Program-made: the position numbers and the translations under genes
The notes under the pieces: model-generated
Database searches by the model: none
What the model saw: the letters and a program-made list of their open reading frames with translations, nothing else
Told to the model about the DNA's origin: nothing
Shown here: positions 19,066 through 48,172 of the stretch, piece by piece
How positions within the stretch are numbered: position 1 is the first letter of the stretch
How the letters are laid out: every line of letters begins with the position of its first letter
Source of the DNA: Phytophthora colocasiae
Lineage: Eukaryota > Oomycota > Peronosporomycetes > Peronosporales > Peronosporaceae
Assembly: GCA_018806915.1 (NCBI GenBank)
Contig: JAGKQI010000064.1
Location: 1,240,001 to 1,304,000 of the forward strand
DNA: 64,000 bases
Direction of reading: 5' to 3'

Positions 19066-19273
19066 CTGCAGATCGAGAAACTCCGCTCTCGATGTGAACT
19101 CGTTCTTCGGAGGCTCAAATGCAAGTTTGAGTTCCTCCTTGAACTCCTCGTACGTGCTGAAGCACGTAGGATCCGAGAGTCGGCGCCCATAGGCCCAACT
19201 CCTCGCACGTCCGCCAAGACATGACATGGCGAACGCGACCTTCGACATCGGATCGACGATACGTCGAGCCGCA
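19066..19273 (-). pseudogene. gag: C0 gag fragment
   Basis: Matches about 26042-26249 of C1 gag (around RSWAYGRRLSDPTCF). It is fused at 19273 to the interior of an LTR, so the LTR end, PBS and gag start are missing, and its other side is cut by the B LTR. Confidence 0.85.
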
Positions 19274-19573
19274 ATATACCGTAAAAATGAGAACTGTTAT
19301 TGAATTTGGCATAAGCCAATTATGGACCTCCTAAAACTGTTTGTTATCTATTTCAAAAGGGTCTGCCAACGTGTGGTTGGCAGAAACTCTGCTCAGTGAT
19401 TGGTAGAAATCCGTTACTTTCTACCAATAATATGCACAAATGCACACGAACCACCCAATAATGTGGTTCGCCCATGTATCCTTTGGTGTGTACAGCACAC
19501 CAAGGTCTGAGGCCCATTTCCAACCTCTAACAGTTATCCTAACTGTTAGAGTTACAAGTGGTACTACGTTACA
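19274..19573 (-). repeat. C1 3' LTR, partial
   Basis: 300 bp matching the last-named half of the 26654-27095 LTR. It shares with that copy a shortened terminus (gtggtactacgttaca) in place of the longer terminus in the 461-bp LTRs. The polypurine tract complement (ccatccccccgtt) adjoins at 19574. Confidence 0.85.
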
Positions 19574-19674
19574 CCATCCCCCCGTTAAGATTCGACGTAT
19601 CGGTCTCGATACGTCAATCAACAGAACTTGACAAAACCGTCAAGTTCCCGAGAGAAATCCGAGTTCATTTCGCA

Positions 19675-26540: not shown

Positions 26541-26653
26541 TTGAGGGTCCCAGCGGATCCCTCATCCATTGGGAGTTCTCTACCCCGCGTTCGTATGACT
26601 CCATACGAACGAACAGCAGTCGGTCGTGTGACGGACTACAAAGTGCTACCAGG

Positions 26654-27095
26654 TGTAATGGGTCTACCTAGACCTATTAGGTGGCGTACACGTGCGCTTA
26701 GGTGTATGAGGAAGCGTGCAATTAGAATAGACTTAATTTAAGTATACTTATTTAAATAAGTATAATTAAATCAAATATAACTAAATTAAACTGCAAAAAT
26801 ACCGTAAAATGAGAACTGTTATTGAATTTGGCATAAGCCAATTATGGACCTCCTAAAACTGTTTGTTATCTATTTCAAAAGGGTCTGCCAACGTGTGGTT
26901 GGCAGAAACTCTGCTCAGTGATTGGTAGAAATCCGTTACTTTCTACCAATAATATGCACAAATGCACACGAACCACCCAATAATGTGGTTCGCCCATGTA
27001 TCCTTTGGTGTGTACAGCACACCAAGGTCTGAGGCCCATTTCCAACCTCTAACAGTTATCCTAACTGTTAGAGTTACAAGTGGTACTACGTTACA
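26654..27095 (-). repeat. LTR shared by C1 (5') and C2 (3')
   Basis: 442 bp; on the minus strand it runs TGTAACG...-type to CCCATTACA. It lacks about 20 bases near its start compared with the 461-bp LTRs. PBS tggtagcactttg follows on the C1 side (around 26651-26635) and the polypurine tract on the C2 side. Confidence 0.88.
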
Positions 27096-27196
27096 CCATC
27101 CCCCCGTTAAGATTCGACGTATCGGTCTCGATACGTCAATCAACAGAACTTGACAAAACCGTCAAGTTCCCGAGAGAAATCCGAGTTCATTTCGCA

Positions 27197-28437
27197 ATGG
27201 ACTCGCCAACGCCCACGTCTCCGTCCGCTACTGCGGACGCGCAAGCCTCACCTGCTGCCTCTGCAGCAGGAACAACGACCTCAGCAGTGCTCACTAGCAC
27301 TGCTGCTTCCAGCGGTCCGACAGAGAAGCTCTCTGTCACCAAGTACCATGCTCTCCATAAGAAGAAGCATGAGAAGAAGACTTCTTCTTCTTCTCTAGCA
27401 GAGATTAAGAATCCTGCGTCCCTCTCAAAGAACTCTTTGGAGAGGACTACGAAGACATCCTCGACTACGATGAGGATGTCGAGGAGGGGGAGGTTGATGT
27501 CAAGGCTCCGCTCCCGTGTCTTCGTCTGAAGACACGTCAGACCCACCCGTGGGATCTCGACGACCACGTGATGAGGCCTCGGACGCTTCAAGCTCGAAGC
27601 GTCCGCGCAGTGATGATGAAGCGTCCCCCATGTCGAGGGCGCTCACTGCCCCGCGCACTGATCCGCCAGTGCGTGCACCATGGATGTCGCTACTACACTT
27701 ACACTACACGTGGTAAGTGTGAACGCCTCCATGATCAGTCCAAGGAAGCGGGGATCCCATGTGCCGTTCCCTTTGGCACACTCTGCCCGTGTTGCCAACC
27801 CTTGGCAACACGCCTCTCAGAAAGTTATCTCCTGGGGTACACGGTCGTCCGTGTACCCGATCACATCAAGGAGCTTCGTGGTCGTCTCGAGCGACGCGGA
27901 GCTCCGAGTGCTGTGGCTGACCGCAGCACTCCTCGTGCAGGGCTTACCCCTGCAAGTTATGGTGGGCTTCGTACGCCCTCACCATTTCCGGAACGTCCTC
28001 CATCAGGACGTTCCGCGGCTCCCACGTATCTCGATGGGGAGGAAATCCTCTCCAACGAATACGAAAACGAACCTCTTGAGAGTTCGTTCTCTTATGAGCC
28101 ACGATCCGCTCAACAATCCAGCGGATCGCTCCACGCGCGTCGCGCAACGGCGGCGGAGGGGGCGGGAACACTCCCTCCGTATGGTCACCGCTATGACCAT
28201 GACGATCGTGCCCTGCACGATCGAGTTGCTGCGCTGGAGCAGACACAGAGCGCTGAGATAGCGGCTCTGAAGCAGGAGGTTCGTGTCCTCCGCGCTGAGG
28301 TCTGCGAGGCAGCTCAGACTGCCTCGAACCTCTCGTCCGGTCTTGGGACGAGAGTGAACCGGTTGATCGACCGTGTCGACGGTCTCGAGAAGGCCTTCCA
28401 GGCCTCTCGCACTCCTCAGTCGGACTACCAGCCCTAG
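27197..28437 (+). pseudogene. C2 antisense ORF
   Basis: Nearly identical to the C1 antisense ORF, including the shared loss of about 300 bases relative to C3, with one further base lost near 27508 that ends the first frame at 27529. The remainder reads from about 27568 to the coiled-coil end at 28437. Confidence 0.6.
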
Positions 28438-31400
28438 GTAGTCCGTGCTGCACGTACAGCTTCAACCGCCCGACGTAGAAGGTCGGGTGGAGCCTCATGC
28501 TGGACGGTATGTCCAGCCGGTACGCGTTGCCGTGCCGTTCAAGTACTTTGAACGGCCCAATGAATCTTGGAGCAAGTTTGCTTGCTCCAAAGTCAGACAC
28601 TGCATGTCTAGGTAGGTTTTGTGTAGCTAACAAAACTAATGAACCCTTTTCGAATTCATTTGTGTTGCCTCTACTAACAGTATCAGCGTTCAGCTTCTGT
28701 CGATCGACAGAAGCTGCGATAGCATCCTGGACAAACCGTATGACGGCTTGTCTTCGCTGGACAAAGTCTAGCGCACCCGAGCTGAATCCTTTCAGCTTGT
28801 CGCCCTTGTCAGCAGCAGGTCCTGCCTGCTCGCTATCATCTCTCATGTCTGTGCCCGGCACAGACATCGCGCGCTCGTTCCTGCTCGAACGAGACGTCGC
28901 ACGCGTCACCGCAGCTGATAGTGTGCTGATATCAGTTGCATTCTGCGGTTGTTCGACGCAACCGTAGATCCTCCCCCACTTAAGGAGGGAGCTACCCCAC
29001 CGAGCATGCTCGGCAATCGTGGATGCCTCATGGCGTTCACGTAGAACGGTGTATGCCCTGTCGAGGCATGCACCGAGTTGTTGATGGCAAACTCTGCCAT
29101 CGGCAAGCACTCGCTCCAGTGCGGGAACGAGTGAGCGTAGCTCTTCAACGTGTCACCCAGTACACGGTTGACACGTTCGGTCTGTCCGTCCGTCTGCGGA
29201 TGATCCGCAGTCGACATTGATAATTGTGAACCAAGAAGTGTAAACACTTCTTGCCAGAACCGCGCTGTGAAGCGTGGATCACGGTCCGACACAATGTCGA
29301 GCGGCATGCCATGGTGTTTGAACACCATGTCAACAAACAGTCGCGCAGTCTGCGCGGCTGTAACAGTAGCCGGGACGGCAGCAAGATGAACCATCTTGCT
29401 GAATCGGTCCACAAAGACAACGATGCCCGTCCTCCGCTAGCTGTCAGGCGGAAGACCAAAGACAAAGTCCATGGACATGGACTGCCAACACTCCGACGGA
29501 GTCGGTAGTGACTGAAGAGGAGCCTGCGAGAACCGCGCAGGCTTCACGCGTTGACAAACCTCGCAAGCAGTATCGCACGTACTTGCGGAACCCACTGTAC
29601 TGGTGGTGCCAGTAGAAGTCACGCGTGAGAAGAGTGTATGTCTTCTCACGACCCGGATGCCCTGCCGTGGGGGCATCGTGATACTCGAACATGATCCTCA
29701 ACCGGAGGTCATGATCATTAGGAACGACAATGCGATCCGCATTGTCGTCTAGTGCACTGTACAACAGTAGGCCTTCGTGTACACGATAGCGGTGTACACG
29801 AGCTCGAAGATGAGGGGTTAGCTTCCGACGTGCCACGTCGGAAGGTGCTACGAGGAACTCCAGCAGCCCTTCGCGTCTGCATCCCGTGCATACGCGTTCT
29901 TCACGTCGTCAATCAACGTTGACGACGGCACACTTGTCCTCACGACGCCAACAGCGTTGGCGTCGACCGTCTCCGCGTAGTCAGGTCGACGCGATAACGC
30001 GTCGGCCACTACATTGAGTCTTCCGGGTTTGTACTCCACCCGGAAGTTGTACTCCGCGAAGAAGGAAAACCATCTCGCCATACGTTGCGAGATGTGCGGC
30101 GACTTAATCGCCGTACGCAGTGATGCGTGGTCTGTATAGACCACGAACGGTCTACACACAAGTAGACACACTCGGAACTTTGCGAGTGCATACTTCATGG
30201 CAAGGAGCTCCTTGTCATGTACGGGATAGTTACGCTCAGCTGGCTTCAGCTGACGCGATTGATAGTAGACTACACGATCACGCCCTTCGTGATCGTGTTG
30301 CATCAATGCACATCCGATTGCAAAGTCGGATGCATCGCACACTACGTGGAATGGACGATCTTGGTCCGCCACGGCCAAGATCGGCGCTTCAGTCAAGCTC
30401 TGCTTGACTGCACCGAATGCATCCTCGCACTCGGTCGTCCAGAATCCACTCAGCTTCTTTCTTAAGAAGCTGTGACAACGGGCGAATCTTGCCCGCATAG
30501 TTGTCCACGTACTTGCACAAGTACGTGGCAAGCTTCCAAGGAACTTCCTCAGTTCCTTCACATTGGATGGCGTGGGCCATTCATTGATCACTCTGACCTT
30601 CTCTGGGTCAGGGCGCACGCCGTCTTTCCCCACGAGACACCCCAGCACGGGTATCTCACTCGCCCCGAAGATACACTTCTTCAGGTTCGCATAGAGCTTA
30701 TGTTTCCTCATACGCTCTAGCAGCTTCCGGAGATGCACCTTGTGCATCTCAATGTCCGTCTTCCCGTTCACAGCCCGGCTGTGGACGAACACGTCGTAGA
30801 AGTAGCTCGGTGCGAAGTCGCGCACCGAGCGCAATAGATGTGTCACGCATCTATTGAACGTCGCAGGGGCGTTCTTAAGCCCCTGTGGCATGACGAGCCA
30901 CTCCCAAAGCATACCGCTTGGAGTGCTTACCGCAGTGAGAGGGATGTCCCTCTCATGCATGAGGATCTGATAGAATCCATCACGCAGATCTAGAGCACTG
31001 AAGATAGTGCTCAAGGCCATCGAATCGATGATAACATCTTTTCGCGGTATCGGCGTCTGCGCCGGTATCGTCGCATCGTTCAACTTGTTGTACGCATGAA
31101 CGATGCGCCAGCCGCCCTGTGGTTTCTTAACACAGAACGTTGGGGCACTGTGCGGGGACTTACGCCCTTGTCCTTCGGAAGCTCCGAAGGAATCTCGTCC
31201 GGGAGTACATCCTTGTACTCCCGCAGAACTTCGTAGTAGGGACTCGACCTCAACGAGTCCCAACTCTGCTCTTCGAAGCGCTGCTTCTTAGTCTTCGCAC
31301 TGAGGGAGTCATCACCCTCAGTGATCCCATCGACGACGAGCTGCTTCAGCTCTTCGGCTTCGCGATCCACTCTCTCGATATCCTAGAGAATGAAAATTTG

Positions 31401-33167
31401 TTCGATGCGTCCATCGTACAAGTCTCGCGCGAAGCGCTTCCAACTCATCGTTGGAAGTGCGGTCAACGCCGACGCACTCGTCGGCGGATTCTCCAACCGC
31501 ATTCTCTGGTACTGTAACCCAGTACCAGTACGTGTCAAGACGTTCAACGTCTCGACACTCGGTGTCTGCACTGCAGATACACCCGTCTCAGTACCGGACT
31601 GAGACTCGCGCAGCTCCCTGAGCTTGCGCCGCGAAGGTCTACCGTGGAGCCCGGCTCCAGGTGCTCCACGTCCAAGGCATCGCACCTTGGACGGGACGTT
31701 ATCGCAATCGTCAGCGGATTCCTTCCGCTGACTCGCACTACTAAGCCCGGCTTGAGTGCCGCTTATCGCGTGCAGCGCTGCTGCACGTGAGCACGCAGGG
31801 TGTTCGGGTGCTGGGCGTTTGCAACCGCCAGCACCTCCTGCCGCGCAGTCGGTTCCCTGTACCGCTGCGCCTCCATCCGCTCCCGGAGCGGATGAAGCAA
31901 CCGCATCGTCGACTCCCGGAGTCGACGTGCTCTCGCTAGCTTCCTGCGCTAGCGAGTGTTCGCTTGTACACATATCGTCAGCTCCCAGAGCTGACGCACG
32001 ATCGCTAGTTCCCGGAACTAGCAGCGAACGTTCGCCTGTACACGCATCATCAGCTCCCGGAGCTGATGCACGATCGCTAGTTCCCAGAACTAGCAGCGAC
32101 GCGCCAGTGGCGTCAGCTCCCAGAGCTGACGCACGATCGCTAGTTCCCGGAACTAGCAGCGAACGTTCGCCTGTACACGCATCATCAGCTCCCGGAGCTG
32201 ATGCACGATCGCTAGTTCCCAGAACTAGCAGCGACGCGCCAGTGGCGTCAGCTCCCAGAGCTGACGCACGCCTTTCGGTTCCCGAATATTATTTGCTTCG
32301 TCAACTCCCAGAGTTGACGCGACGTCAGTCGGCGCGACCTTGGGGCTTGAAGTACCTCCAAGGATACCGGGAAGACCGGTATTTTACATTCTCTCAGGTG
32401 AATGCGATTCACCTGACCATCACTCATGTGACAAACATCATTCAGATGTTTATGCGTCAGGTGATTCACATTCACCTGACCATCACTCATGTGACCGCGA
32501 CCCTTCGGCTCAGATTTCTGAGTCGACACACATTTTCTCCCAACGACTCTCGGAGTCGTTGATGGTCGCCGGCGGCGATCGGAGGCAGCGGCGGACGCTG
32601 CTGCCTCAACTGGGGAAACACATGCATCGCCTGGTGCATGTGCAGCACTGACAGGGCCATCGCTCTCTGTCGCGCATGTGTTGTTGAAGCGTACGAGCGT
32701 ACGCTTCTTCCAGTTGATCACCGGGTCATGCCGTGCAAGCCACGGCATGCCTAATACCAAGTCGAACTTATCGTCTAGATCCAAGACGATAAGATCTTCT
32801 ACAAACGTCCTTCGTTTGTAAGAGAAGCGCACACGGACTACGCGCTTCTCAGTCCTCCCAGTGGCACCCGTTGCCAACCGCACCTCCAACACGCTGCGAG
32901 GCGTGTCGGCCTCTTCGAAGTCAAGTCTTCGAAGACTTCCCGGTCGAACAATGTTGTTCGACGCGCCCGAGTCCACTAGGGCACGAAGAGAGTTCACTCT
33001 CTTCGACATCACGTTCAGGATGACAAGGTTTGGCTTGTCATCTGTGCAGCTTGCAGCGAGAAACCTTCTCGCTGGGGCAGCAGTCCTCATTGTCGCGTGT
33101 CCAAGCTCGACACGTGAGACTGCATCACCAGTAGGACGCCCGCGCCTACTGGTCCTTGGCGTTTTTT
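27944..33167 (-). pseudogene. pol: C2 pol polyprotein, heavily broken
   Basis: Contains protease (DSGASNNIVRPG), the repetitive linker with an in-frame 135-bp tandem duplication (31996-32265), RT with the same FYD box, RNase H, integrase and chromodomain (down to 27944). Lesions include frameshifts near 33140, 32280, 30530 and 29860, the TAG of C1 near 31385, and loss of about 145 bases just upstream of RT near 31160. It keeps MD in the first integrase Asp motif. Confidence 0.88.
33128..33167 (-). promoter_or_regulatory. C2 -1 frameshift signal
   Basis: AAAAAAC at 33167-33161 and the same 8-bp hairpin 3' to it (33152-33145 with 33135-33128). One C is missing from the hairpin loop compared with C1, which also shifts the downstream pol frame. 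Confidence 0.7.
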
Positions 33168-34132
33168 GAACGCCCGCCCGCTGTGCACTCGCGTGCATAG
33201 TGACCGATGTTACCACACAGGTAACATCGAACCTTGACGTTCTTATGCTGCTGTTGACCAGCAGTCGTAGCACTCGAGAGGTCCATAGGTTCCGGACCTC
33301 CCCTCTTCGCAACAGGACGCGCCGGCTTCGGCGCGTTCGCATGGAGTTTAGCTTGACGCCGGCTAAACTCCTCTTGCATTGCAAGGCTGATCGCCTCCTC
33401 GAGAGTATTCGGATACTCTCGGAAGAGATACGTCTTGACGGGACCATCTCTTAGTCCCTTCATGAACGTGACGACCTTGGTCGCCTCGTCGATCGGGTTC
33501 GCCACTATGTTCGATACCAAGTATCGAGCACGCTGGGCAAAGGTGTGAACATCATCCTTGCCCTGCTGCAGATCGAGAAACTCCGCTCTCGATCTGAACT
33601 CGTTCTTCGGAGGCTCAAATGCAAGTTTGAGTTCCTCCTTGAACTCCTCGTACGTGCTGAAGCACGTAGGATCCGAGAGTCGGCGCCCATAGGCCCAACT
33701 CCTCGCACGTCCGCCAAGACATGACATGGCGAATGCGACCTTCGACATCGGATTGACGATACGTCGAGCCGCAACGGCTGTATCAAGTTCGACAATCCAA
33801 CGAAGGAGGGTCTCGTCCTCCTTCCCCGTGTAGGTACTCACGTGGAGTTTCAACGACTCCACGCGTGGCTTAGGGGAAGCCACCGAGGCAGCAACATCTC
33901 GTTGCTCCTTAACAATGTACCCCAGAGCAACACCGTGTTGCTCTGTCGGCGATAGCGTACGAAGCATCGTCGCTACCGCTGCCTCTCCAATGACTCGCGA
34001 GAGTCTTTGGAGAGCCTCCCACTCTGGATCAGACAGGTGGGCGCAGTCCGTGCGCGTCACGGACATTTGAGGGGTCCCAGCGGATCCCTCATCCATTGGG
34101 GAGTTCTCTACCCCGCGTTCGTATGACTCCAT
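33146..34132 (-). CDS. gag: C2 gag (328 aa)
   Basis: Same Gag as C1 but with an intact N-terminus starting MESYERGVENSPMDEGSAG, 49 bases below the LTR end. Capsid core and a single CCHC knuckle are intact. This is the best guide to the real start codon of family-2 Gag. Confidence 0.9.
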   Translation of the reverse strand: MESYERGVENSPMDEGSAGTPQMSVTRTDCAHLSDPEWEALQRLSRVIGEAAVATMLRTLSPTEQHGVALGYIVKEQRDVAASVASPKPRVESLKLHVSTYTGKEDETLLRWIVELDTAVAARRIVNPMSKVAFAMSCLGGRARSWAYGRRLSDPTCFSTYEEFKEELKLAFEPPKNEFRSRAEFLDLQQGKDDVHTFAQRARYLVSNIVANPIDEATKVVTFMKGLRDGPVKTYLFREYPNTLEEAISLAMQEEFSRRQAKLHANAPKPARPVAKRGGPEPMDLSSATTAGQQQHKNVKVRCYLCGNIGHYARECTAGGRSKNAKDQ

Positions 34133-34161
34133 ACGAACGAACAGCAGTCGGTCGTGTGACG

Positions 34162-34179
34162 GACTACAAAGTGCTACCA
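34162..34179 (-). other. Primer-binding site of family 2
   Basis: On the minus strand, two bases after the LTR end ...TTACA, the sequence reads TGGTAGCACTTTGTAGTC. It starts with the TGG expected of a PBS. C1 has the same site next to 26654; C3 has lost it. The tRNA is not identified. Confidence 0.6.
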
Positions 34180-34181
34180 GG

Positions 34182-34642
34182 TGTAATGGGTCTACCTAGA
34201 CCTATTAGGTGGCGTACACGTGCGCTTAGGTGTATGAGGAAGCGTGCAATTAGAATAGACTTAATTTAAGTATACTTATTTAAATAAGTATAATTAAATC
34301 AAATATAACTAAATTAAACTGCAAAAATACCGTAAAATGAGAACTGTTATTGAATTTGGCATAAGCCAATTATGGACCTCCTAAAACTGTTTGTTATCTA
34401 TTTCAAAAGGGTCTGCCAACGTGTGGTTGGCAGAAACTCTGCTCAGTGATTGGTAGAAATCCGTTACTTTCTACCAATAATATGCACAAATGCACACGAA
34501 CCACCCAATAATGTGGTTCGCCCATGTATCCTTTGGTGTGTGCAGCACACCAAGGTCTGAGGCCCATTTCCAACCTCTAACAGTTATCCTAACTGTTAGA
34601 GTTACAAGTGGTACAACCACTTGTACGTGTAACCCCGTTACA
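34182..34642 (-). repeat. C2 5' LTR
   Basis: 461 bp, minus strand TGTAACGGGG...CCCATTACA, equal in length to the C3 5' LTR. It is full of short perfect inverted repeats. Its outer end abuts family-1 leader sequence of G at 34643. Confidence 0.92.
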
Positions 34643-36009
34643 CACGGTGATATCCGAAGTCACCAGAAGATCCGGGCACGCGCACCATTGTGGTGGAGCG
34701 GATCTACCAAAATCTCGTTAAGGCAGGTCCCGATCACCACTTGCGCCCAGACACCGACTAACGGAGGGGGTCCCCCGATGATCCGTGATCTAGCTGTGTG
34801 TAGTTTCACCTTGTGTACCCGTCGGTAGGCGGGTTACGCTCTTCCAGGTGACTTCTGAAGATGTCTTGTAGGTCGGAAGAAAGTATTGCGTGACGCAGGG
34901 GTTTGAGGTAGCGTGGAAGTTCTTCACTCCACCTCGGGGTACTTGATCCCGGTCGTAGGCGAGTTCTCGAGCCTTGATCCGGGCGCCTGGTTCTTGATCC
35001 AGGTCTTCCAATAGTCCAATGTTCGGGATTCAGTCCCTTCCTTTCGTTGTTTTCCGCTTCCGATAGCGGGGGTCTTGAGGGGGCGAGATTCGACGGGATC
35101 CTTAGGCTAAACAACCAATTTCTTCCGATCCGATGTATGCACTTAAAGGATAGTTCACTAGATAGGGCAAAGCTGGCCAATATATTATCCAGACTTAACC
35201 GCTATACTAGGTCACATATCCTTACCTTCTTGACGCTTGTAGGGCCAATATAGTTCTCGGTTCCAGGCGTAGCGAAGACACTTGAGTGGTTCAGGGCAAA
35301 TTCGATTCTGTTTATGGTTATTCCTATGCCTACTAATCCCATCCTGATTTACTATCCTACGATCACATGACACTGGCTACATACCTGATCCCTAGCTTGG
35401 TTCCCCTAACCCTGATCGTGAGCCGATTTCGTACTTATCTGGGACTTGATCTCGCACTTAGCCGAGCCTTGATCTCGCACTTAATCGGGACTTGATCTCG
35501 CACTCAGTCGGGGAGGTGATCGCTGCCAGATCCCGCTTGGTAGTCGTTCGGAGAATTAGGATCAGGCCACCTGAGGAGTCTGCGTCGGACCTGGGGCTGA
35601 GCTTGATCCGGAGCTGATCTCGTACTTAAACGGGAGGGGATCACTACGTGATCCCGCTTCGCCGCCGTCCGGGGAATCAGGATCATGTTGTTAGAAGGCT
35701 CCAGGGTGTCGGGGTGAACCGTGAGCCAAGATTGTGCTCACTTGGGACCCCACCATTGCCGATCGCGCGAGGACACCCTTGATCTGCCCATTCTCCCACC
35801 CGGTAGAACTCGGATCACCAACGAACCGTGCTCCGCTAGGCCTTCCGCAGGTGTCTCCGCTGCCTGTTCCCCGGCGGGACCCATCGTACCTTCGTTTGAT
35901 TCGACTCAGATCTGGGCATCACAGGTCCCCCCTGTCGCTTGTTCTGGCTCTCTTCGGCTTCGTGGCTGATATCGCCTCTCCGGGAAAGATCTTCGTTCGC
36001 TTCACCACA
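34643..36009 (-). mobile_element. Element G: family-1 LTR with 46 bp of leader
   Basis: The LTR is 34689-36009 (1321 bp, exact TGTGGTGAAG end at 36009). It is followed on the minus strand by the PBS and leader to 34643, where the C2 LTR interrupts it. The 24-bp minisatellite is reduced to about three units. The outer end lies in Helitron coding DNA. Confidence 0.88.
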
Positions 36010-37677: not shown

Positions 37678-38259
37678 GGTGTAGATAAGATGAACGACGG
37701 TCAAAGGCTCATTTTTGATCAATTGATTGGTGCAGTAGAGAATCCAGAAGTTGGTCAGAAACTATTCTTTATCGACGGACCAGATGGTACCAGTAAATCG
37801 TTCCTGCTCGAACAAATTCTTGTCAGAGTACGTTTGGACGGAGGGGTAGCAGTGGCAGTCGCTTCCAGTGAAATCGCAGCACCATTGCTGACAGGGGTCA
37901 TACGGCGCATTCGACATTTCGTATTCCGCTAAAATTGAGCGATCATTCCACCTGTAGCATCTCCAAACAGAGCCAGAAAGCTAAGTTGATACGCCGAGCC
38001 AATTTGATTCTCTGGGACGAGGCCCCCATAGAGACGCTAAAGGTGTTTTTCAAGGCATCTCCATTATGGCAGTATCTTCGACAAGTACAACTGATCGAAA
38101 ATATGCGCGTGAAGACAGCACCTGATCCAGACAGTGCGGCAGAGTTAGCTGAATTTTCAGACTTCTTGCTACAGATTGGTGAGGGGAGCTATCCTGTGAA
38201 TCGCAACAGCGATGATAGCGATATTTGCATCCCAAAGGCTATGTGCGTCGGGACGTCTG
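37678..38259 (+). pseudogene. Helitron helicase, N-terminal part
   Basis: PIF1-like helicase start (MNDGQRLIFDQLIG) with a Walker A region degraded to GPDGTSKSFL, followed by a frame break near 37905. Walker B reads LILWDEAP, after which internal sequence is deleted (to SPLWQYLRQVQLIENMR). C3 is inserted at 38260 after the GTCTG copy at 38255-38259. Confidence 0.85.
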
Positions 38260-38720
38260 TGTAACGGGGTTACACGTACAAGTGGTTGTACCACTTGTAA
38301 CTCTAACAGTTAGGATAACTGTTAGAGGTTGGAGATGGGCCTAAGACCTTGGTGTGCTGTACACACCAAAGGATACATGGGCGAACCACATTATTGGGTG
38401 GTTCGTGTGCATTTGTGCATATTATTGGTAGAAAGTAACGGATTTCTACCAATCACTGAGCAGAGTTTCTGCCAACCACACGTTGGCAGACCCTTTTGAA
38501 ATAGATAACAAACAGTTTTAGGAGGTCCATAATTGGCTTATGCCAAATTCAATAACAGTTCTCATTTTACGGTATTTTTGCAGTTTAATTTAGTTATATT
38601 TGATTTAATTATACTTATTTAAATAAGTATACTTAAATTAAGTCTATTCTAATTGCACGCTTCCTCATACACCTAAGCGCACGTGTACGCCACCTAATAG
38701 GTCTAAGTAGACCCATTACA
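38260..38720 (+). repeat. C3 5' LTR
   Basis: 461 bp, TGTAACGGGG...CCCATTACA. It holds many perfect inverted repeats, for example around ttggtgtgctgtacacacc and gtagaaagtaacggatttctac. Confidence 0.93.
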
Positions 38721-38721
38721 G

Positions 38722-39393
38722 GACGAGACCCTCCTTCGGTGGCTTGTCGAACTCGACACAGCCATTGCGGCTCGACGTATCGTCGATCCGATGTCGAAGG
38801 TCGCGTTCGCCATGTCATGTCTTGGCGGACGTGCGAGGAGTTGGGCCTATGGGCGCCGACTCTCGGATCCTACGTGCTTCAGCACGTACGAGGAGTTCAA
38901 GGAGGAACTCAAACTTGCATTTGAGCCTCCGAAGAACGAGTTCAGATCGAGAGCGGAGTTTCTCGATCTGCAGCAGGGCAAGGATGATGTTCACACCTTT
39001 GCCCAGCGTGCTCGATACTTGGTATCGAACATAGTGGCGAACCCGATCGACGAGGCGACCAAGGTCGTCACGTTCATGAAGGGACTAAGAGATGGTCCCG
39101 TCAAGACGTATCTCTTCCGAGAGTATCCGAATACTCTCGAGGAGGCGATCAGCCTTGCAATGCAAGAGGAGTTTAGCCGGCGTCAAGCTAAACTCCATGC
39201 GAACGCGCCGAAGCCGGCGCGTCCTGTTGCGAAGAGGGGAGGTCCGGAACCTATGGACCTCTCGAGTGCTACGACTGCTGGTCAACAGCAGCATAAGAAC
39301 GTCAAGGTTCGATGTTACCTGTGTGGTAACATCGGTCACTATGCACGCGAGTGCACAGCGGGCGGGCGTTCAAAAAACGCCAAGGACCAGTAG
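38722..39393 (+). pseudogene. gag: C3 gag, lacking its N-terminus
   Basis: Open from the LTR edge (DETLLRWLVELDTAIAARR) to TAG at 39391, with capsid core and CCHC knuckle intact. About 90-110 N-terminal codons and the leader with PBS are missing; the LTR end joins gag coding sequence directly. An internal ATG at 38791 could start a shorter protein, but there is no evidence for that. Confidence 0.85.
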
Positions 39394-39412
39394 GCGCGGG
39401 GCGTCCTACTGG
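39372..39412 (+). promoter_or_regulatory. C3 -1 frameshift signal (AAAAAAC plus hairpin)
   Basis: AAAAAAC at 39372-39378 in gag phase A AAA AAC, 8-base spacer, then the perfect stem 39387-39394 with 39405-39412. The pol frame is open across it and is the -1 frame. This is the classical arrangement; activity is inferred. Confidence 0.78.
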
Positions 39413-41332
39413 TGATGCAGTCTCACGTGTCGAGCTTGGACACGCGACAATGAGGACTGCTGCCCCCAGCGAGAAGGTTTCTCGCTGTAAGCTGCAAGAT
39501 GACAAGCCAAACCTTGTCATCCTGAACGTGATGTCGAAGAGAGTGAACTCTCTTCGTGCCCTAGTGGACTCGGGCGCGTCGAACAACATTGTTCGACCGG
39601 GAAGTCTTCGAAGACTTGACTTCGAAGAGGCCGACACGCCTCGCAGCGTGTTGGAGGTGCGGTTGGCAACGGGTGCCACCGGGAGGACTGAGAAGCGCGT
39701 AGTCCGTGTGCGCTTCTCTTACAAACGAAGGACGTTTGTAGAAGATCTTATCGTCTTGGATCTAGACGATAAGTTCGACTTGGTATTAGGCATGCCGTGG
39801 CTTGCACGGCATGACCCGGTGATCAACTGGAAGAAGCGTACGCTCGTACGCTTCAACAACACATGCGCGACAGAGAGCGATGGCCCTGTCAGTGCTGCAC
39901 ATGCACCAGGCGATGCATGTGTTTCCCCAGTTGAGGCAGCAGCGTCCGCCGCTGCCTCCGATCGCCGCCGGCGACCATCAACGACTCCGAGAGTCGTTGG
40001 GAGAAAATGTGTGTCGACTCAGAAATCTGAGCCGAAGGGTCGCGGTCACATGAGTGATGGTCAGGTGAATGTGAATCACCTGACGCATAAACATCTGAAT
40101 GATGTTTGTCACATGAGTGATGGTCAGGTGAATCGCATTCACCTGAGAGAATGTAAAATACCGGTATTACCGGTATCCTTGGAGGTACTTCAAGCCCCCA
40201 AGGGTCGCGCCGACGACGTCGCGTCAGCTCTGGGAGCTGACGCCACTGGCGCATCGCTGCTAGTTCTGGGAACTAGCGATCGTGCATCAGCTCCGGGAGC
40301 TGATGATGCGTGTACAAGCGAACGTTCGCTGCTAGTTCCGGGAACTAGCGATCGTGCGTCAGCTCTGGTAGCTGACGATATGTGTACAAGCGAACACTCG
40401 CTAGCGCAGGAAGCTAGCGAGAGCACGTCGACTCCGGGAGTCGACGATGCGGTTGCTTCATCCGCTCCGGGAGCGGATGGAGGCGCAGCGGTACAGGGAA
40501 CCGACTGCGCGGCAGGAGGTGCTGGCGGTTGCAAACGCCCAGCACCCGAACACCCTGCGTGCTCACGTGCAGCAGCGCTGCACGCGATGAGCGGCACTCA
40601 AGCCGGGCTTGATAGTGCGAGTCAGCGGAAGGATTCCGCTGACGATTGCGATAACGTCCCGTCCAAGGTGCGATGCCTTGGACGTGGAGCACCTGGAGCC
40701 GGGCTCCACGGTAGACCTTCGCGGCGCAAGCTCAGGGAGCTGCGCGAGTCTCAGTCCGGTACTGAGACGGGTGTATCTGCAGTGCAGACACCGAGTGTCG
40801 AGACGTTGAACGTCTTGACACGTACTGGTACTGGGTTACAGTACCAGAGAATGCGGTTGGAGAATCCGCCGACGAGTGCGTCGGCGTTGACCGCACTTCC
40901 AACGATGAGTTGGAAGCGCTTCGCGCGAGACTTGTACGATGGACGCATCGAACAAATTTGCATTCTCTCGGATATCGAGAGAGTGGATCGCGAAGCCGAA
41001 GAGCTGAAGCAGCTCGTCGTCGATGGGATCACTGAGGGTGATGACTCCCTCAGTGCGAAGACTAAGAAGCAGCGCTTCGAAGAGCAGAGTTGGGACTCGT
41101 TGAGGTCGAGTCCCTACTACGAAGTTCTGCGGGAGTACAAGGATGTACTCCCGGACGAGATTCCTTCGGAGCTTCCGAAGGACAAGGGCGTACAGCACGA
41201 GATTGATCTCGTGCCGGGCACGAAGTACTGTGTTACACGGCAGTGGCCACTGCCGCGTGAACAAGTGCAAGCGATCGACGACTTCTTTGAAAGTCGTCGT
41301 CTTGCAGGTCAAGTGCGGGAGTCAAAGTCCCG
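39372..41332 (+). pseudogene. pro: C3 protease and repetitive linker
   Basis: Protease DSGASNNIVRPG and LGMPWLARHDP, then a linker of repeated SALGAD/TSDRAS-type blocks encoded by palindromes (40220-40500) and a conserved pre-RT region (LPDEIPSELPKDKG). A C missing near 41330 shifts the frame at the start of RT. The Ser codon that is TAG in C1 and C2 is intact here. Confidence 0.87.
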
Positions 41333-42727
41333 CACAGTGCCCCAACGTTCTGTGTTAAGAAACCACAGGGCGGCTGGCGCATCGTTCATGCGTACAACAA
41401 GTTGAACGATGCGACGATACCGGCGCAGACGCCGATACCGCGAAAAGATGTTATCATCGATTCGATGGCCTTGAGCACTATCTTCAGTGCTCTAGATCTG
41501 CGTGATGGATTCTATCAGATCCTCATGCATGAGAGGGACATCCCTCTCACTGCGGTAAGCACTCCAAGCGGTATGCTTTGGGAGTGGCTCGTCATGCCAC
41601 AGGGGCTTAAGAACGCCCCTGCGACGTTCAATAGATGCGTGACACATCTATTGCGCTCGGTGCGCGACTTCGCACCGAGCTACTTCTACGACGTGTTCGT
41701 CCACAGCCGGGCTGTGAACGGGAAGACGGACATTGAGATGCACAAGGTGCATCTCCGGAAGCTGCTAGAGCTTATGAGGAAACATAAGCTCTATGCGAAC
41801 CTGAAGAAGTGTATCTTCGGGGCGAGTGAGATACCCGTGCTGGGGTGTCTCGTGGGGAAAGACGGCGTGCGCCCTGACCCAGAGAAGGTCAGAGTGATCA
41901 ATGAATGGCCCACGCCATCCAATGTGAAGGAACTGAGGAAGTTCCTTGGGCTTGCCACGTACTTGTGCAAGTACGTGGACAACTATGCGGGCAAGATTCG
42001 CCCGTTGTCACAGCTTCTTAAGAAAGAAGCTGAGTGGATTTGGACGACCGAGTGCGAGGATGCATTCGGTGCAGTCAAGCAGAGCTTGACTGAAGCGCCG
42101 ATCTTGGCCGTGGCGGACCAAGATCGTCCATTCCACGTAGTGTGCGATGCATCCGACTTTGCAATCGGATGTGCATTGATGCAACACGATCACGAAGGGC
42201 GTGATCGTGTAGTCTACTATCAATCGCGTCAGCTGAAGCCAGCTGAGCGTAACTATCCCGTACATGACAAGGAGCTCCTTGCCATGAAGTATGCACTCGC
42301 AAAGTTCCGAGTGTGTCTACTTGGGTGTAGACCGTTCGTGGTCTATACAGACCACGCATCACTGCGTACGGCGATTAAGTCGCCGCACATCTCGCAACGT
42401 ATGGCGAGATGGTTGTCCTTCTTCGCGGAGTACAACTTCCGGGTGGAGTACAAACCCGGAAGACTCAATGTAGTGGCCGACGCGTTATCGCGTCGACCTG
42501 ACTACGCGGAGACGGTCGACGCCAACGCTGTTGGCGTCGTGAGGACAAGTGTGCCGTCGTCAACGTTGATTGACGACGTGAAGAACGCGTATGCAAGGGA
42601 TGCAGACGCGAAGGGGCTGCTGGAGTTCCTCGCAGCACCTTCCGACGTGGCACGTCGGAAGCTAACCCCTCATCTTCGAGCTCGTGTACACCGCTATCGT
42701 GTACACGAAGGCCTACTGTTGTATTAG
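41333..42727 (+). pseudogene. pol: C3 reverse transcriptase and RNase H
   Basis: RT fingers and palm: FSALDLRDGFYQILM, MPQGLKNAPATFNR, and SYFYDVFVHS at about 41677-41706, with Tyr in place of the first Asp of the FDD box. Gypsy RNase H follows with catalytic residues present (CDASDFA, DKELLA, YTDHASL), then ALSRRPDYAETVDA. It ends at 42727 through a one-base gain. Confidence 0.9.
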
Positions 42728-44536
42728 TGCACTGAACGACAATGCGGATCGCATTGTCGTTCCTAATGATCATGACCTCCGGTTGAGGATCATGTTCGAG
42801 TATCATGATGCCCCCACGGCAGGGCATCCGGGTCGTGAGAAGACATACACTCTTCTCACGCGTGACTTCTACTGGCACCACCAGTACAAGTGGGTTCGCA
42901 AGTACGTACGTGCTTGCGAGGTTTGTCAACGCGTGAAGCCTGCGCGGTTCTCGCAGGCTCCTCTTCAGTCACTACCGACTCCGTCGGAGTGTTGGCAGTC
43001 CATGTCCATGGACTTTGTCTTTGGTCTTCCGCCTGACAGCTAGCGGAGGACGGGCATCGTTGTCTTTGTGGACCGATTCAGCAAGATGGTTCATCTTGCT
43101 GCCGTCCCGGCTACTGTTACAGCCGCGCAGACTGCGCGACTGTTTGTTGACATGGTGTTCAAACACCATGGCATGCCGCTCGATATTGTGTCGGACCGTG
43201 ATCCACGCTTCACAGCGCGGTTCTGGCAAGAAGTGTTTACACTTCTTGGTTCACAGCTATCAATGTCGACTGCGGATCATCCGCAGACGGACGGACAGAC
43301 CGAACGTGTCAACCGTGTACTGGGTGACACGTTGAAGAGCTACGCTCACTCGTTCCCGCATTGGAGCGAGTGCTTGCCGATGGCAGAGTTTGCCATCAAC
43401 AACTCGGTGCATGCCTCGACAGGGCATACACCGTTCTACGTGAACGCCATGAGGCATCCACGATTGCCGAGCATGCTCGGCGGGGTAGCTTCCTCCTTAA
43501 GTGGGGGAGGATCTACGGTTGCGTCGAACAACCGCAGAATGCAACTGATAGCAGCACACTATCAGCTGCGGTGACGCGTGCGACGTCTCGTTCGAGCAGG
43601 AACGAGCGCGCGATGTCTGTGCCGGGCACAGACATGAGAGATGATAGCGAGCAGGCAGGACCTGCTGCTGACAAGGGCGACAAGCTGAAAGGATTCAGCT
43701 CGGGTGCGCTAGACTTTGTCCAGCGAAGACAAGCCGTCATACGGTTTGTCCAGGATGCTATCGCAGCTTCTGTCGATCGACAGAAGCTGAACGCTGATAC
43801 TGTTGGTAGAGGCAACACAAATGAATTCGAAAAGGGTTCATTAGTTTTGTTAGCTACACAAAACCTACCTAGACATGCAGTGTCTGACTTTGGAGCAAGC
43901 AAACTTGCTCCAAGATTCATTGGGCCGTTCAAAGTACTTAAACGGCACGGCAACGCGTACCGGCTGGACATACCGTCCAGCATGAGGCTCCACCCGACCT
44001 TCTACGTCGGGCGGTTGAAGCTGTACGTGCAGCACGGACTACCTAGAGCTGGTAGTCCGACTGAGGAGTGCGAGAGGCCTGGAAGGCCTTCTCGAGACCG
44101 TCGACACGGTCGATCAACCGGTTCACTCTCGTCCCAAGACCGGACGAGAGGTTCGAGGCAGTCTGAGCTGCCTCGCAGACCTCAGCGCGGAGGACACGAA
44201 CCTCCTGCTTCAGAGCCGCTATCTCAGCGCTCTGTGTCTGCTCCAGCGCAGCAACTCGATCGTGCAGGGCACGATCGTCATGGTCATAGCGGTGACCATA
44301 CGGAGGGAGTGTTCCCGCCCCCTCCGCCGCCGTTGCGCGACGCGCGTGGAGCGATCCGCTGGATTGTTGAGCGGATCGTGGCTCATAAGAGAACGAACTC
44401 TCAAGAGGTTCGTTTTCGTATTCGTTGGAGAGGATTTCCTCCCCATCGAGATACGTGGGAGCCGCGGAACGTCCTGATGGAGGACGTTCCGGAAATGGTG
44501 AGGGCGTACGAAGCCCACCATAACTTGCAGGGGTAA
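42728..44536 (+). pseudogene. int: C3 integrase and chromodomain
   Basis: HHCC finger (HDAPTAGHPG, CEVCQRV), first Asp in SMDFVFGL, then TAG at 43041-43043, then IVSDRDPRF and DGQTERVNR. A frame change near 43555 leads into the GPF/Y module (IGPFKVLKRHGNAYRL), a basic low-complexity stretch and a chromodomain (WIVERIVAHKR, RFRIRWRGFPPHRDTWEP). The TAG and the frame change recur at the same places in C1 and C2. The last 494 bases are overlapped by the antisense ORF. Confidence 0.9.
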
Positions 44537-45533
44537 GCCCTGCACGAGGAGTGCTGCGGTCAGCCACAGCACTCGGAGCTCCGCGTCGCTCGAGACGACC
44601 ACGAAGCTCCTTGATGTGATCGGGTACACGGACGACCGTGTACCCCAGGAGATAACTTTCTGAGAGGCGTGTTGCCAAGGGTTGGCAACACGGGCAGAGT
44701 GTGCCAAAGGGAACGGCACATGGGATCCCCGCTTCCTTGGACTGATCATGGAGGCGTTCACACTTACCACGTGTAGTGTAAGTGTAGTAGCGATCGCGAG
44801 CCGCAGCAACGCGATCGCGATATGCCTTCGGGTCTTTGTTGAAGTTATCAACAAAGGCGTTCCACGACTGAGTGCCCTGCCACTCGGGCACTTTGGCGAC
44901 GTCTTCTTCGTTGCATAGCATCGGAGCCTGCGGAAGAGCCCGATATAGGTCGCGTCTTTGAGGTCTCGGACTAAAGACAACCTTAGCGTGGCGACGTCGT
45001 CGTCGATACTGTTGCATGAATACAACAGTATCGGGCCCGTGGTGAACTAGCACCGAACCGGTCATGGATCTCGCCCTCAGTAGGCATTCATGGTGCACGC
45101 ACTGGAGGATCAGTGCGTGGAGCAGTGAGCGCCCTCGACATGGGGACGCTTCATCATCACTGCGCGGACGCTTCGAGCTTGAAGCGTCCGAGGCCTCATA
45201 ACGAGGTCGTCGGGATCCCACGGGTGGGTCTGACGTGTCTTCGTAGTCCTCGACATCCCCGTCGTAGTCGAGGATGTCTTCGCAGTCCATCAAGAGTTCT
45301 TTGAGAGGGACAGCAGGATTCTTAATCTCTGCTAGAGAAGAAGAAGAAGTCTTCTTCTCATGCTTCTTCTTATGGAGAGCATGGTACTTGGTGACAGAGA
45401 GCTTCTCTGTCGGACCGCTGGAAGCAGCAGTGCTAGTGAGAACTGCTGAGGTCGTTGTTCCTGCTGCAGAGGCAGCAGGAGAGGCTTGCGCGTCCGCAGA
45501 AGCGGACGGAGACGTGGGCGTTGGCGAGTTCAT
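44043..45533 (-). CDS. C3 antisense ORF, 496 aa, coiled-coil protein
   Basis: The longest version of the family-2 antisense gene. Order: Ser/Ala/Thr-rich start (MNSPTPTSPSASADAQ), Lys-rich patch (HALHKKKHEKK), acidic strip (CEDILDYDGDVEDYED), Arg-rich section, a segment with WQGTQSWNAFVDNFNKDP, a possible metal site (CERLHDQS...CAV...CPCC), and a C-terminal coiled coil (LEQTQSAEIAALKQEVRVL). It begins about 100 bp from the 3' LTR and reads away from it, so the LTR could drive it. Function unknown. Confidence 0.7.
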   Translation of the reverse strand: MNSPTPTSPSASADAQASPAASAAGTTTSAVLTSTAASSGPTEKLSVTKYHALHKKKHEKKTSSSSLAEIKNPAVPLKELLMDCEDILDYDGDVEDYEDTSDPPVGSRRPRYEASDASSSKRPRSDDEASPCRGRSLLHALILQCVHHECLLRARSMTGSVLVHHGPDTVVFMQQYRRRRRHAKVVFSPRPQRRDLYRALPQAPMLCNEEDVAKVPEWQGTQSWNAFVDNFNKDPKAYRDRVAAARDRYYTYTTRGKCERLHDQSKEAGIPCAVPFGTLCPCCQPLATRLSESYLLGYTVVRVPDHIKELRGRLERRGAPSAVADRSTPRAGLTPASYGGLRTPSPFPERPPSGRSAAPTYLDGEEILSNEYENEPLESSFSYEPRSAQQSSGSLHARRATAAEGAGTLPPYGHRYDHDDRALHDRVAALEQTQSAEIAALKQEVRVLRAEVCEAAQTASNLSSGLGTRVNRLIDRVDGLEKAFQASRTPQSDYQL

Positions 45534-45624
45534 TGCGAAATGAACTCGGATTTCTCTTGGGAACTTGACGGTCTTGTCAAGTTCTGTTGATTGACGTATC
45601 GAGACCGATACGTCGAATCTTAAC

Positions 45625-45634
45625 AGGGGGATGG
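45625..45634 (+). other. Polypurine tract of C3
   Basis: AGGGGGATGG directly precedes the 3' LTR; its complement adjoins the 3' LTRs of C1 and C2. Confidence 0.75.
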
Positions 45635-45987
45635 TGTAACGGGGTTACACGTACAAGTGGTTGTACCACTTGTAACTCTAACAGTTAGGATAACTGTTAG
45701 AGGTTGGAAATGGGCCTCAGACCTTGGTGTGCTGTACACACCAAAGGATACATGGGCGAACCACATTATTGGGTGGTTCGTGTGCATTTGTGCATATTAT
45801 TGGTAGAAAGTAACGGATTTCTACCAATCACTGAGCAGAGTTTCTGCCAACCACACGTTGGCAGACCCTTTTGAAATAGATAACAAACAGTTTTAGGAGG
45901 TCCATAATTGGCTTATGCCAAATTCAATAACAGTTCTCATTTTACGGTATTTTGCAGTTTAATTTAGTTATATTTGATTTAATTATA
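45635..45987 (+). repeat. C3 3' LTR, left part
   Basis: Matches the first 353 bp of the 461-bp LTR and stops at TA (45986-45987), the target site of transposon E. The LTR resumes at 61176. Confidence 0.9.
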
Positions 45988-46128
45988 CACCTTTGCCCGG
46001 CCAAAGTGGGCTAATCAGCATCCAATGTGGGCAGGATTAATTTTAGGCGGCTGACAGAAACCCAAAATAGCCCAAAACTTTTTTTTTCACACAATCAAAG
46101 TGGGCTAATCATCATTCAAAGCGGGCAA
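45988..46128 (+). repeat. E left terminal inverted repeat
   Basis: 141 bp, essentially identical to the reverse complement of 61035-61175, including a nine-T run. The motif aaagtgggctaatca occurs twice, a possible transposase-binding direct repeat. Confidence 0.9.
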
Positions 46129-46679: not shown

Positions 46680-48172
46680 TGTGGTGGAGCGGATCTGACC
46701 AAAATCTGGTTGAGGCCGATCGCGATCGCCACTTGCGCCCAGACACCGACTAACGGAGGGGGTCCCCCGATGATCCGTGATCTTGTTGCGTGTAGTGTTC
46801 ACCTTGTGTACCCGTCGGTAGGCGGGTTACGCTCTTCCAGGTAACTTCTGAAGATGTCTTGGGACGAGAAGAAGGTCTTGGGCTTGGGTGACGCAGGGGT
46901 TTGAGGCGGCGTGGAAGTTCTTCACTCCACCTCGGGGTACTTGATCCCGGTCGTAGGCGAGTTCTCGAGCCTTGATCCGGGCGCCTGGTTCTTGATCCAG
47001 GTCTTCCAATAGTCCAATGTTCAGGATTCAGTCCTTCCTTTCGTTGTTTTCCGCTTCCGATGGCGGGGTCTTGAGGGAGGCGAGATTCGACGGGATCCTT
47101 AGGCTAAACAACCAATTTCTTCCGATCCGATGTATGCACTTAAAGGATAGTTCACTAGATAGGGCAAAGCTGGCCAATATATTATCCAGACTTAGCCGCT
47201 ATACTAGGTCACATATCCTTACCTTCTTGACGCTTGTAGGGCCAATATAGTTCTCGGTTCCAGGCGTAGCGAAGACACTTGAGTGGTTCAGGGCAAATTC
47301 GATTCTGTTTATGGTTATTCCTATGCCTACTAATCCCATCCTGATTTACTATCCTACGATCACATGACACTGGCTACATACCTGATCCCTAGCTTGGTTC
47401 CCCTAACCCTGATCGTGAGCCGATTTCGTACTTATCTGGGACTTGATCTCGCACTTAGCCGAAGCTTGATCTCGCACTTAACCGAAGCTTGATCTCGCAC
47501 TTAACCGAAGCTTGATCTCGCACTTAACCGAAGCTTGATCTCGCACTTAACCGAAGCTTGATCTCGCACTTAACCGGAGCTTGATCTCGTACTTAATCGG
47601 GACTTGATCTCGCACTTAACCGGAGCTTGATCTCGTACTTAATCGGGACTTGATCACTGCCTGATCCCGCTTGGTGATCCTTCTTAGAATCCGGATCAGG
47701 CCACAAGAAGAGTCTGCGTCGCGCCTGGGGTTGACCTTGATCCGGAGCTGATCTCGTACTTATACGGGAGAGGATCATTGCGCGATCTTGCGTGATCTCG
47801 CTTCGTCGCCGCCCGGGAAGTTGGATCGTGCTGTTAGAGGCTTCGGGGCGCCAGGAGTAAGCTGATCATGCTCGCTTGGGGACCCGTCATCGTTGATCGC
47901 GCGAGAACATCCTTGATTTCCCCATTCTTCCTCCGGCAGGATTCGGATCACCCACGAACACCACGGCAGGATTCGGATCACCCACGAACACCGCTCCACC
48001 TGCTTCTTCGCCGGTGTCTCCATTGCCTGTTCCCGGCGGGACCCATCGTACCTCCGTCTGATTCGACCCAGATCTGGCGATCACAGGTCCCCCCTGTCGC
48101 TCGTTCCGACTCTATTCGGGTTCGTGGCTGACATCGCCTCTCCGGGAAAATTTTTTCGTCCGCTTCACCACA
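46680..48172 (-). repeat. Element D 3' LTR
   Basis: 1493 bp, exact TGTGGTG/CACCACA ends. It differs from the 5' LTR (59343-60837) by scattered substitutions and small indels, and contains the 24-bp minisatellite at about 47430-47655. The polypurine tract complement follows at 48173-48184. Confidence 0.92.

Follow-up and report, generated by a model that had tools for sequence, protein, structure and literature searches.

Short perfect hairpins saturate a Ty3/gypsy chromovirus of Phytophthora colocasiae and may record recurrent template switching

What process could fill a retrotransposon with short perfect hairpins, in its genes and in its long terminal repeats (LTRs) alike? The question is raised by a Ty3/gypsy element, here called family A, three copies of which (C1, C2 and C3) lie in a stretch of 64,000 nucleotides of Phytophthora colocasiae (contig JAGKQI010000064.1, positions 1,240,001 to 1,304,000 of the forward strand), hereafter the window. 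A sequence-only reading of C3, in which the element was named family 2, had listed 14 perfect inverted repeats and had offered two explanations: template switching by the reverse transcriptase (RT) on its own strand, and selection on the folding of RNA or single-stranded DNA. The best explanation to emerge from the analysis reported here, with a confidence just above even, is that template switching recurs at quasi-palindromes while the element replicates and that protein constraint filters its products.

Hairpin saturation of family A

Family A is a Ty3/gypsy chromovirus with LTRs, a gag with zinc knuckle, protease, RT, RNase H, an SH3 domain and a chromodomain. The Pfam domains of C3 above cut-offs were, in order, Retrotrans_gag, zf-CCHC, RVP_2, RVT_1 and RT_RNaseH, and its chromodomain end, scanned in C3 alone, scored 46.2 bits with PF00385 and 56.2 bits with PF24626. 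The main parts of C3, including its open reading frames (ORFs), were as follows.

38259 to 45988, plus strand: C3, family A chromovirus, with 175 non-overlapping perfect stems of arm at least 6
38259 to 38614, plus strand: 5' LTR, with 7 perfect stems of arms 7-12
38791 to 39393, plus strand: gag ORF, with Retrotrans_gag and a CCHC zinc knuckle
39351 to 41405, plus strand: protease and linker ORF
41402 to 42727, plus strand: RT-RNase H ORF, which holds all 14 hairpins of the sequence-only reading
43361 to 44536, plus strand: Tf2-1-like SH3 and chromodomain ORF
44046 to 45533, minus strand: antisense ORF of 496 amino acids, with homologues in Phytophthora
45634 to 45988, plus strand: 3' LTR, 99.2% identical to the 5' LTR

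The two LTRs of C3 are about 356 bp long. The end of C3 had been placed at 45634 and was corrected to 45988, since 45634-45988 is the 3' LTR.

All 14 inverted repeats listed earlier were recovered at their positions with arms of at least the lengths given. Two stems described as 7 bp are in fact 9 bp (41629-41653 and 42099-42126), and the list holds nine stems of arm at least 8 instead of the eight that had been counted. With hairpins defined as perfect inverted repeats of arm ≥8 and loop 0-10, the density per kb was 14.4 in C3, 14.2 in C1 and 14.0 in C2, compared to 0.54 in the remaining 40,691 bases of the window. Greedy placement of non-overlapping stems (arm ≥6) assigned 48.8% of C3 bases to hairpins including loops, compared to 5-7% in five shuffles. 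The density was also far above that of codon-preserving shuffles (200 per ORF, stems of arm ≥8 counted), with 6 stems in the gag ORF against 0.18, 40 in the protease and linker ORF against 1.0, 18 in the RT-RNase H ORF against 0.6 and 10 in the chromodomain-end ORF against 0.46. Overall, codon shuffles retained about 3% of the observed stems over the four C3 ORFs, and chance or codon bias as the source of the hairpins was rejected by the dinucleotide and codon shuffles. The pattern had been described as absent from family 1, another retroelement of the same host with RNase H and integrase domains, and this was borne out: three ORFs of the family 1 stretch held 0, 1 and 0 stems of arm ≥8, matching the 0.2-0.4 of their own codon shuffles.

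The excess was limited to short loops, from 0 to about 16 with a peak at 3, and was gone beyond. It was present in the LTR as well as in coding DNA, as had been read from the sequence, with 7 stems of arm ≥7 in the 356 bp, and only 2 of the 39 bins of 200 bp in C3 were without a stem of arm ≥7, while no stem of arm ≥8 was present in the four flanking kilobases tested. Under a definition taken from the literature (arm ≥10, spacer ≤8), C3 had 109 arm-bp per kb compared to 1.8 in the rest of the window; the eukaryote mean given in PMC13155455 is 1.91 inverted-repeat bp per kb, a value that may or may not count spacers. Most C3 stem pairs were also unchanged in C1 and C2, as they were in each of the 10 copies mapped from other contigs. 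The hairpin saturation of family A was confirmed as real and very strong.

Short-offset direct repeats of at least 8, examined as a control, showed a mild rise (15 compared to 2-6 in five shuffles). The codon phase of pairing (28, 19 and 27 of the 74 coding stems) was close to that of the shuffles, and the base skew of the arms was too weak to use. A known structured RNA was rejected, with 0 Rfam matches at the gathering threshold in 38200-46050. Window DNA outside the elements was itself about three times richer in perfect hairpins than its dinucleotide shuffles (0.54 against 0.16 per kb).

Hairpins in related gypsy families

A motif search produced 777 related RNase H sites in several sequence variants, and a motif of family A was counted 246 times in the 92.5-Mb genome. 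Twenty stretches of 10 kb, which include flanks and other repeats, were compared between the families. Stems of arm ≥8 per stretch numbered 84, 84 and 105 in family A, 27-44 in family B (six stretches), 29-30 in family C (three stretches), 18 in the C-related stretch L024 and 8-16 in family D (seven stretches). Hairpin enrichment among the related gypsy elements is graded and less than in A; the pattern is not confined to family 2, as related families are enriched too at lower density.

In the RT region, families B, C and D were approximately 61-64% identical to A (the L029 row of this comparison aligns only in part). Stems of arm ≥8 in this region numbered 17 and 15 in two copies of A, 3 in each of two pieces of B, 6 and 5 in C, and 1, 3 and 0 in D; L030 had 2. 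The codon-shuffle expectation was 0.2-1.0, from shuffles that are partly out of frame because of stops in the frame used (6 in L028, 7 in L016, 2 in L021, 9 in L023, 6 in L012 and 3 in L030). Stems of the RT gene with the same centre as an A stem were 3 of 22 in B, 0 of 11 in C, 1 of 11 in D and 0 of 8 in L030; B and C had 3 stem centres in common, and one short stem was common to A, B and D. Since stem positions mostly differ between families, the hairpins arose largely independently, and different positions in the same RT gene indicate a process and not one conserved structure. Several families have thus built most of their hairpins separately in the same conserved gene, and a single inherited structure was rejected on the same ground. 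No relatives were confirmed in viral contigs, and a further search there gave 0 matches.

Separately, family D motifs on contig C5 formed five convergent pairs with spacings of 4046, 4046, 4057, 4623 and 5986 bases. Inverted duplications of 1.0 kb in L010 (family D) and 1.3 kb in L016 (family B), at 97-98% identity, were found, with none in L011 and L014. Both observations may represent inverted dimers of elements.

Changes of spacers and stems among copies

For the 3' end of the element, 18 of 20 extra stretches were usable; the other two, L037 and L042, could not be mapped to it. Six family A stems of 9-11 bp had a spacer of 3-6 nt that was found in both orientations among the copies.

40124 to 40146: stem of 10, 3-nt spacer, CGC in 7 copies and GCG in 2
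43890 to 43913: stem of 10, 4-nt spacer, CAAG in 1 copy and CTTG in 3
44668 to 44692: stem of 11, 3-nt spacer, GGG in 16 copies and CCC in 2
45165 to 45190: stem of 10, 6-nt spacer, GAGCTT in 19 copies and AAGCTC in 2
45335 to 45359: stem of 10, 5-nt spacer, AGAAG in 3 copies and CTTCT in 10, in an AGA/TCT-rich tract
45459 to 45480: stem of 9, 4-nt spacer, AGAA in 2 copies and TTCT in 1

Among 129 pairs of spacer haplotypes with at least two differences, 6 were exact reverse complements, 0 were mirror images and 2 were complements; random bases at the same sites gave a mean of 0.5 reverse complements with a maximum of 3 in 2000 trials. Four of the inversions are unambiguous, since in the two 3-nt cases the reverse complement is identical to the plain complement. 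The minority orientation was often present in only one to three copies. Inversion of a spacer with its arms intact is described as a signature of template switching in yeast, where the arms measured 10-16 and the spacers 2-5 (PMC8604942), and inversion by template switching is also described for ribosomal RNA hairpins (PMC8794818).

Substitutions were compared at sites that were equal in C3 and L028, with L008, C1 and C2 excluded from the shared-site counts; a variant was called shared when it occurred in two or more of the eight other family A copies. Shared and private variants, respectively, fell on 8 and 73 of the 1065 inner stem sites, 3 and 9 of the 139 terminal ones, 14 and 31 of the 284 loop sites and 32 and 188 of the 2302 spacer sites. 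The shared variants were most frequent in loops, and the contrast between classes came mostly from these variable loops.

Completion and breaking of stems were scored against random sites of the same base, after singletons in dense clusters or near gaps had been dropped (540 of 998 kept). Private variants of family A completed stems 27 times (14.6 expected) and broke them 112 times (122.8 expected), which is near neutral. Shared variants completed stems 16 times (9.0 expected) and broke them 35 times (72.3 expected). With the dropped singletons retained and a different null, 59 completed stems of arm ≥8 compared to 20. Singletons of family B gave 12 completing (7.9 expected) and 25 breaking (34.8 expected), and those of family D gave 7 (3.0 expected) and 11 (9.3 expected). 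The few shared variants in these two families gave 2 completing (0.7 expected) and 0 breaking (2.7 expected) in B, and 1 completing (1.0 expected) and 3 breaking (3.7 expected) in D. Pooled over A, B and D, 46 singletons completed stems compared to 25.5 expected (Poisson P 1.6e-4). The sequence-only reading had proposed comparing orthologous sites for substitutions that preferentially complete hairpins, and such an excess was present in both private and shared variants of A.

At stem sites of family A, a Watson-Crick pair was left by 12 of the 62 shared changes and by 11 of the 247 private ones; L008 was left out of this count and of the G.T and A.C counts below. Stems ended at a silently closable pair in 29 of 74 cases (39%), compared to 40% for random pairs.

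Tests of RNA structure

When G.U pairs were permitted on the transcript strand, family A gained 38 stems compared to about 27 in shuffles; with A.C pairs, which equal G.U on the other strand, it gained 49 compared to about 17. For family B, allowing G.U added 69 stems compared to 38 in all in shuffles, which is a G.U excess. Shared stem changes in family A gave 17 G.T and 15 A.C. Single-mismatch stems in 9-pair windows leaned to A.C in A (27 against 14) and to G.T in B (12 against 3, L016), and therefore no consistent strand was indicated.

The mean folding z-score of family A was -7.05 on the plus strand and -8.89 on the minus strand; in both A and B, either strand gave extreme z-scores. The minus strand had the lower score in 11 of 13 windows in A, 9 of 15 in B, 3 of 13 in C and 10 of 13 in D. 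Neither better folding of the transcript strand than of its complement nor G.U tolerance on the transcript strand was seen in A, and plain selection for a transcript fold with G.U tolerance was rejected for this family on these two grounds. Overall, the structure tests weakened the explanation by folding selection for A, though a bias towards local hairpins of about 9 bp would leave a very similar picture.

Structure and copies of the element

The other two family A copies and a repeat within C3 were placed as follows.

26760 to 34644, minus strand: C1, second family A copy
19066 to 27090, minus strand: C2, third family A copy, whose LTR near 26760-27089 is apparently in common with C1
40254 to 40402, plus strand: 72-bp tandem repeat in the C3 linker, with units that are themselves hairpins

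C1 and C2 (19066-34644) resemble a tandem array with one common LTR, and an extra gag-start fragment lies at 19066-19274. Tandem repeats of the 72-bp hairpin unit were found in the linkers of all three copies (24557-24705, 31951-32270 and 40254-40402) with a varying number of units. Around the hairpin elements, repeats contained 23-bp tandem arrays of approximately 4 to 10 units (18324-18536, 35425-35512, 47422-47655 and 60095-60307).

The interval of C3 downstream of RNase H (42728-43360), where an integrase would be expected, had stops in the frame read; integrase-type domains PF00665 or PF17921 were present in several Phytophthora relatives of the C3 RT ORF. This ORF had relatives of 87% identity over its full length in Phytophthora cactorum and close ones in several further Phytophthora species, which indicates a Phytophthora-like host. 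No primer-binding site complementary to the LTR was found at 8-14 bases. The RT catalytic motif of C3 (41681-41700) deviates from that of the other listed family A copies, among which the usual motif exists, and C3 itself is probably inactive, judging by this deviation.

The antisense ORF overlaps the chromodomain end of pol. In 7 of 25 copies matched by tblastn, a single stop-free piece spanned at least 80% of its length; many of the others were cut by the ends of the stretches. Its protein had at least 344 homologues at E ≤ 0.001, the best being 66% identical, and among the 120 listed, all those with an organism name were from Phytophthora. No Pfam match was found for the product. The ORF is probably a real antisense gene of family A-type elements.

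Origin of the hairpins

Under template switching, a strand being copied would fold back on itself, or meet its complement, and its 3' end, with the facing arm of an imperfect hairpin as template, would be extended by a few nucleotides before returning to the original template. An imperfect inverted repeat would thereby be made perfect, or the spacer of a perfect one inverted. Repeated at each cycle across the whole element, in the LTRs and in both coding strands, and with purifying selection on the proteins discarding damaging events, such switching would let stems of about 6-13 bp build up where the code permits; new mismatches would be copied away and stems would stay perfect. Protein constraint would then set the limits of the hairpins. 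The first of the two explanations offered earlier gained support from the six spacer inversions, the preferential completion of stems, the pairing conserved in the lineage that replicates, stem ends that fall irrespective of silent closure, the lack of a G.U excess in A, the confinement to short spacers and an enrichment that follows related element families and not the genome. Its choice of enzyme, the element's own RT, is suggested by the restriction of the enrichment to related RT families in a common host genome in which family 1 is unaffected.

Several results weigh against this explanation. Changes in RT-gene stems relative to C3 were interleaved in both arms (35 left, 49 right and 8 both), contradicting a simple rewriting of one arm. 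The direction was not significant with C3 (35 against 49) or with L028 (33 against 51) and pointed to no strand, and changes within one stem alternated between arms, so that many small and partial events over many cycles are needed. Family A stems with two changes had them in one arm in 65 cases and in both in 50, which is approximately chance; with three changes the numbers were 17 and 45, and with four 2 and 14. Two changes gave 11 against 9 in B, 4 against 6 in C and 11 against 11 in D. These one-arm and both-arm comparisons overlap and are dominated by private changes, and most multiple changes at stems may come from decay after insertion. Single-mismatch stems were also in excess (61 compared to about 5.5 in shuffles; 9-pair windows, C3), which is unlike a perfectly efficient correction. 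The comparison of shared with private variants in stems against loops and spacers was not significant (Fisher P 0.12), and the avoidance of stem-breaking shared variants is equally predicted by selection. Of the completing variants, L017, the copy that diverges most, supplied 9 of the 27 singletons. Two of the 16 shared ones are the single spacer inversion at 45335, which sits in a simple tract and could also have come from slippage. No spacer inversions were seen in families B (5 mapped copies), C (3) and D (7).

Selection for local folding of the element RNA or of its single-stranded complementary DNA (cDNA), for example through escape from small-RNA silencing, packaging or RNA stability, with ordinary point mutations retained if they complete stems and lost if they break them, would account for shared variants that break stems half as often as expected, for pairs re-formed more often among shared than private changes, for the extreme folding z-scores on both strands of A and B, and for changes that fall in either arm, one site at a time, with no clustering in one arm. 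The G.U-stem excess of B and its lean of G.T over A.C agree with it as well, and small RNAs of 25/26 nt are proposed in PMC3804510 to silence transposable elements in Phytophthora. It does not account well for family A, where neither G.U tolerance nor a preference for the transcript strand was found, nor for stem positions that are little conserved between families and entire spacers that are inverted between copies. Completing changes were in excess among private, largely post-insertion variants, among which breaking ones were not purged. Stems were also no longer where silent extension is possible, a null result that would be odd under selection for longer stems. This second of the earlier explanations, weakened by the results in A, is considered possible but rather unlikely.

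Correction by the host would instead act on extruded hairpins or cruciforms, mismatch-repaired or converted with either arm as template, after integration or in extrachromosomal cDNA. Changes in both arms, the absent G.U excess in A and the spacer inversions would all follow, and conversion of repeats is proposed in PMC6649704 for nematomorph mitochondrial palindromes. Neither family 1 nor the remaining DNA of the window is affected, however, and private, mostly post-insertion mutations break stems near the neutral rate; integrated copies are therefore not visibly corrected, though cDNA might be corrected before integration. This explanation is regarded as improbable. Chance, base composition, codon usage or an artefact of alignment or assembly has a negligible probability, considering the shortfall of both kinds of shuffle, the stem pairs kept in C1, C2 and the copies from other contigs, and the sharp borders of the element in hairpin density. 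Template switching at quasi-palindromes is consequently preferred. A stronger form of it, in which an RT is so prone to switching that over many cycles the whole element became a chain of perfect hairpins, largely independently in sister families, is put forward tentatively, at somewhat less than an even chance; it would be a mutational ratchet, with the error mode of an enzyme rather than the needs of RNA or protein setting the sequence.

Relation to known systems and significance

The closest published case found is that of the coding palindromes of Nematomorpha, which differ from those of family A in length, number and genome. Mitochondrial genes of Nematomorpha are described as functional coding genes with many perfect inverted repeats, gained and lost between species; conversion, for instance by template switching, is among the mechanisms considered by the authors (PMC6649704). 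Perfect repeats inside genes, and their gain and loss at different places in relatives, are likewise found in families A-D. The nematomorph repeats, in the account of PMC6649704, belong to an organelle genome, have arms of up to 284 bp and are accompanied by almost no imperfect repeats, whereas family A is a nuclear retrotransposon with arms of 6-13 bp, one hairpin per approximately 44 bp including the LTRs, and an excess of imperfect stems as well. Template switching in yeast, as described in PMC8604942, resembles the present case in the homogenisation of arms, the inversion of spacers and the similar stem size, but concerns 39 genes across a species lineage, while in family A a whole element would have been reshaped many times over, possibly by an RT as the polymerase. 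The switching at RNA hairpins described in PMC8794818 involves the same class of mutation, with compensatory changes and inverted loops; it acts on RNA genes under selection for structure, whereas family A has little conserved position and no G.U signature.

With other Ty3/gypsy chromoviruses, family A shares its gag zinc knuckle, protease, RT, RNase H, Tf2-1-like SH3, chromodomain and LTRs, and it differs from them in the hairpin saturation and in the antisense ORF of 496 amino acids that overlaps the 3' end of pol. Among RNA viruses with genome-scale ordered RNA structure, it is the transcript strand that folds, through G.U and long-range pairs. Folding is pervasive across the coding sequence there as in family A, but the stems of family A are short-range, without G.U excess and alike on both strands. 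No description of a retrotransposon with such hairpin saturation was recognised in the literature searched, as judged by titles and the openings of abstracts and with few subscription papers in its scope. Family A is a known kind of element with a property not found described, and its hairpin build-up is probably a mode of evolution not found described.

If template switching is the cause, family A would hold an unusually dense record of a mutation process that is mostly reported as single events, with about 250 motif-bearing copies in which events could be dated. It would provide a natural test of whether an RT can drive sequence evolution against codon constraint, and would open to testing the broader question of how coding DNA gains short inverted repeats and keeps them perfect. 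Should selection be responsible instead, family A would represent an extreme among folded retrotransposon genomes, which would have implications for silencing. In both cases, its genes are still recognisable with approximately half of the bases of the element in hairpins, which bears on how far the code can bend.

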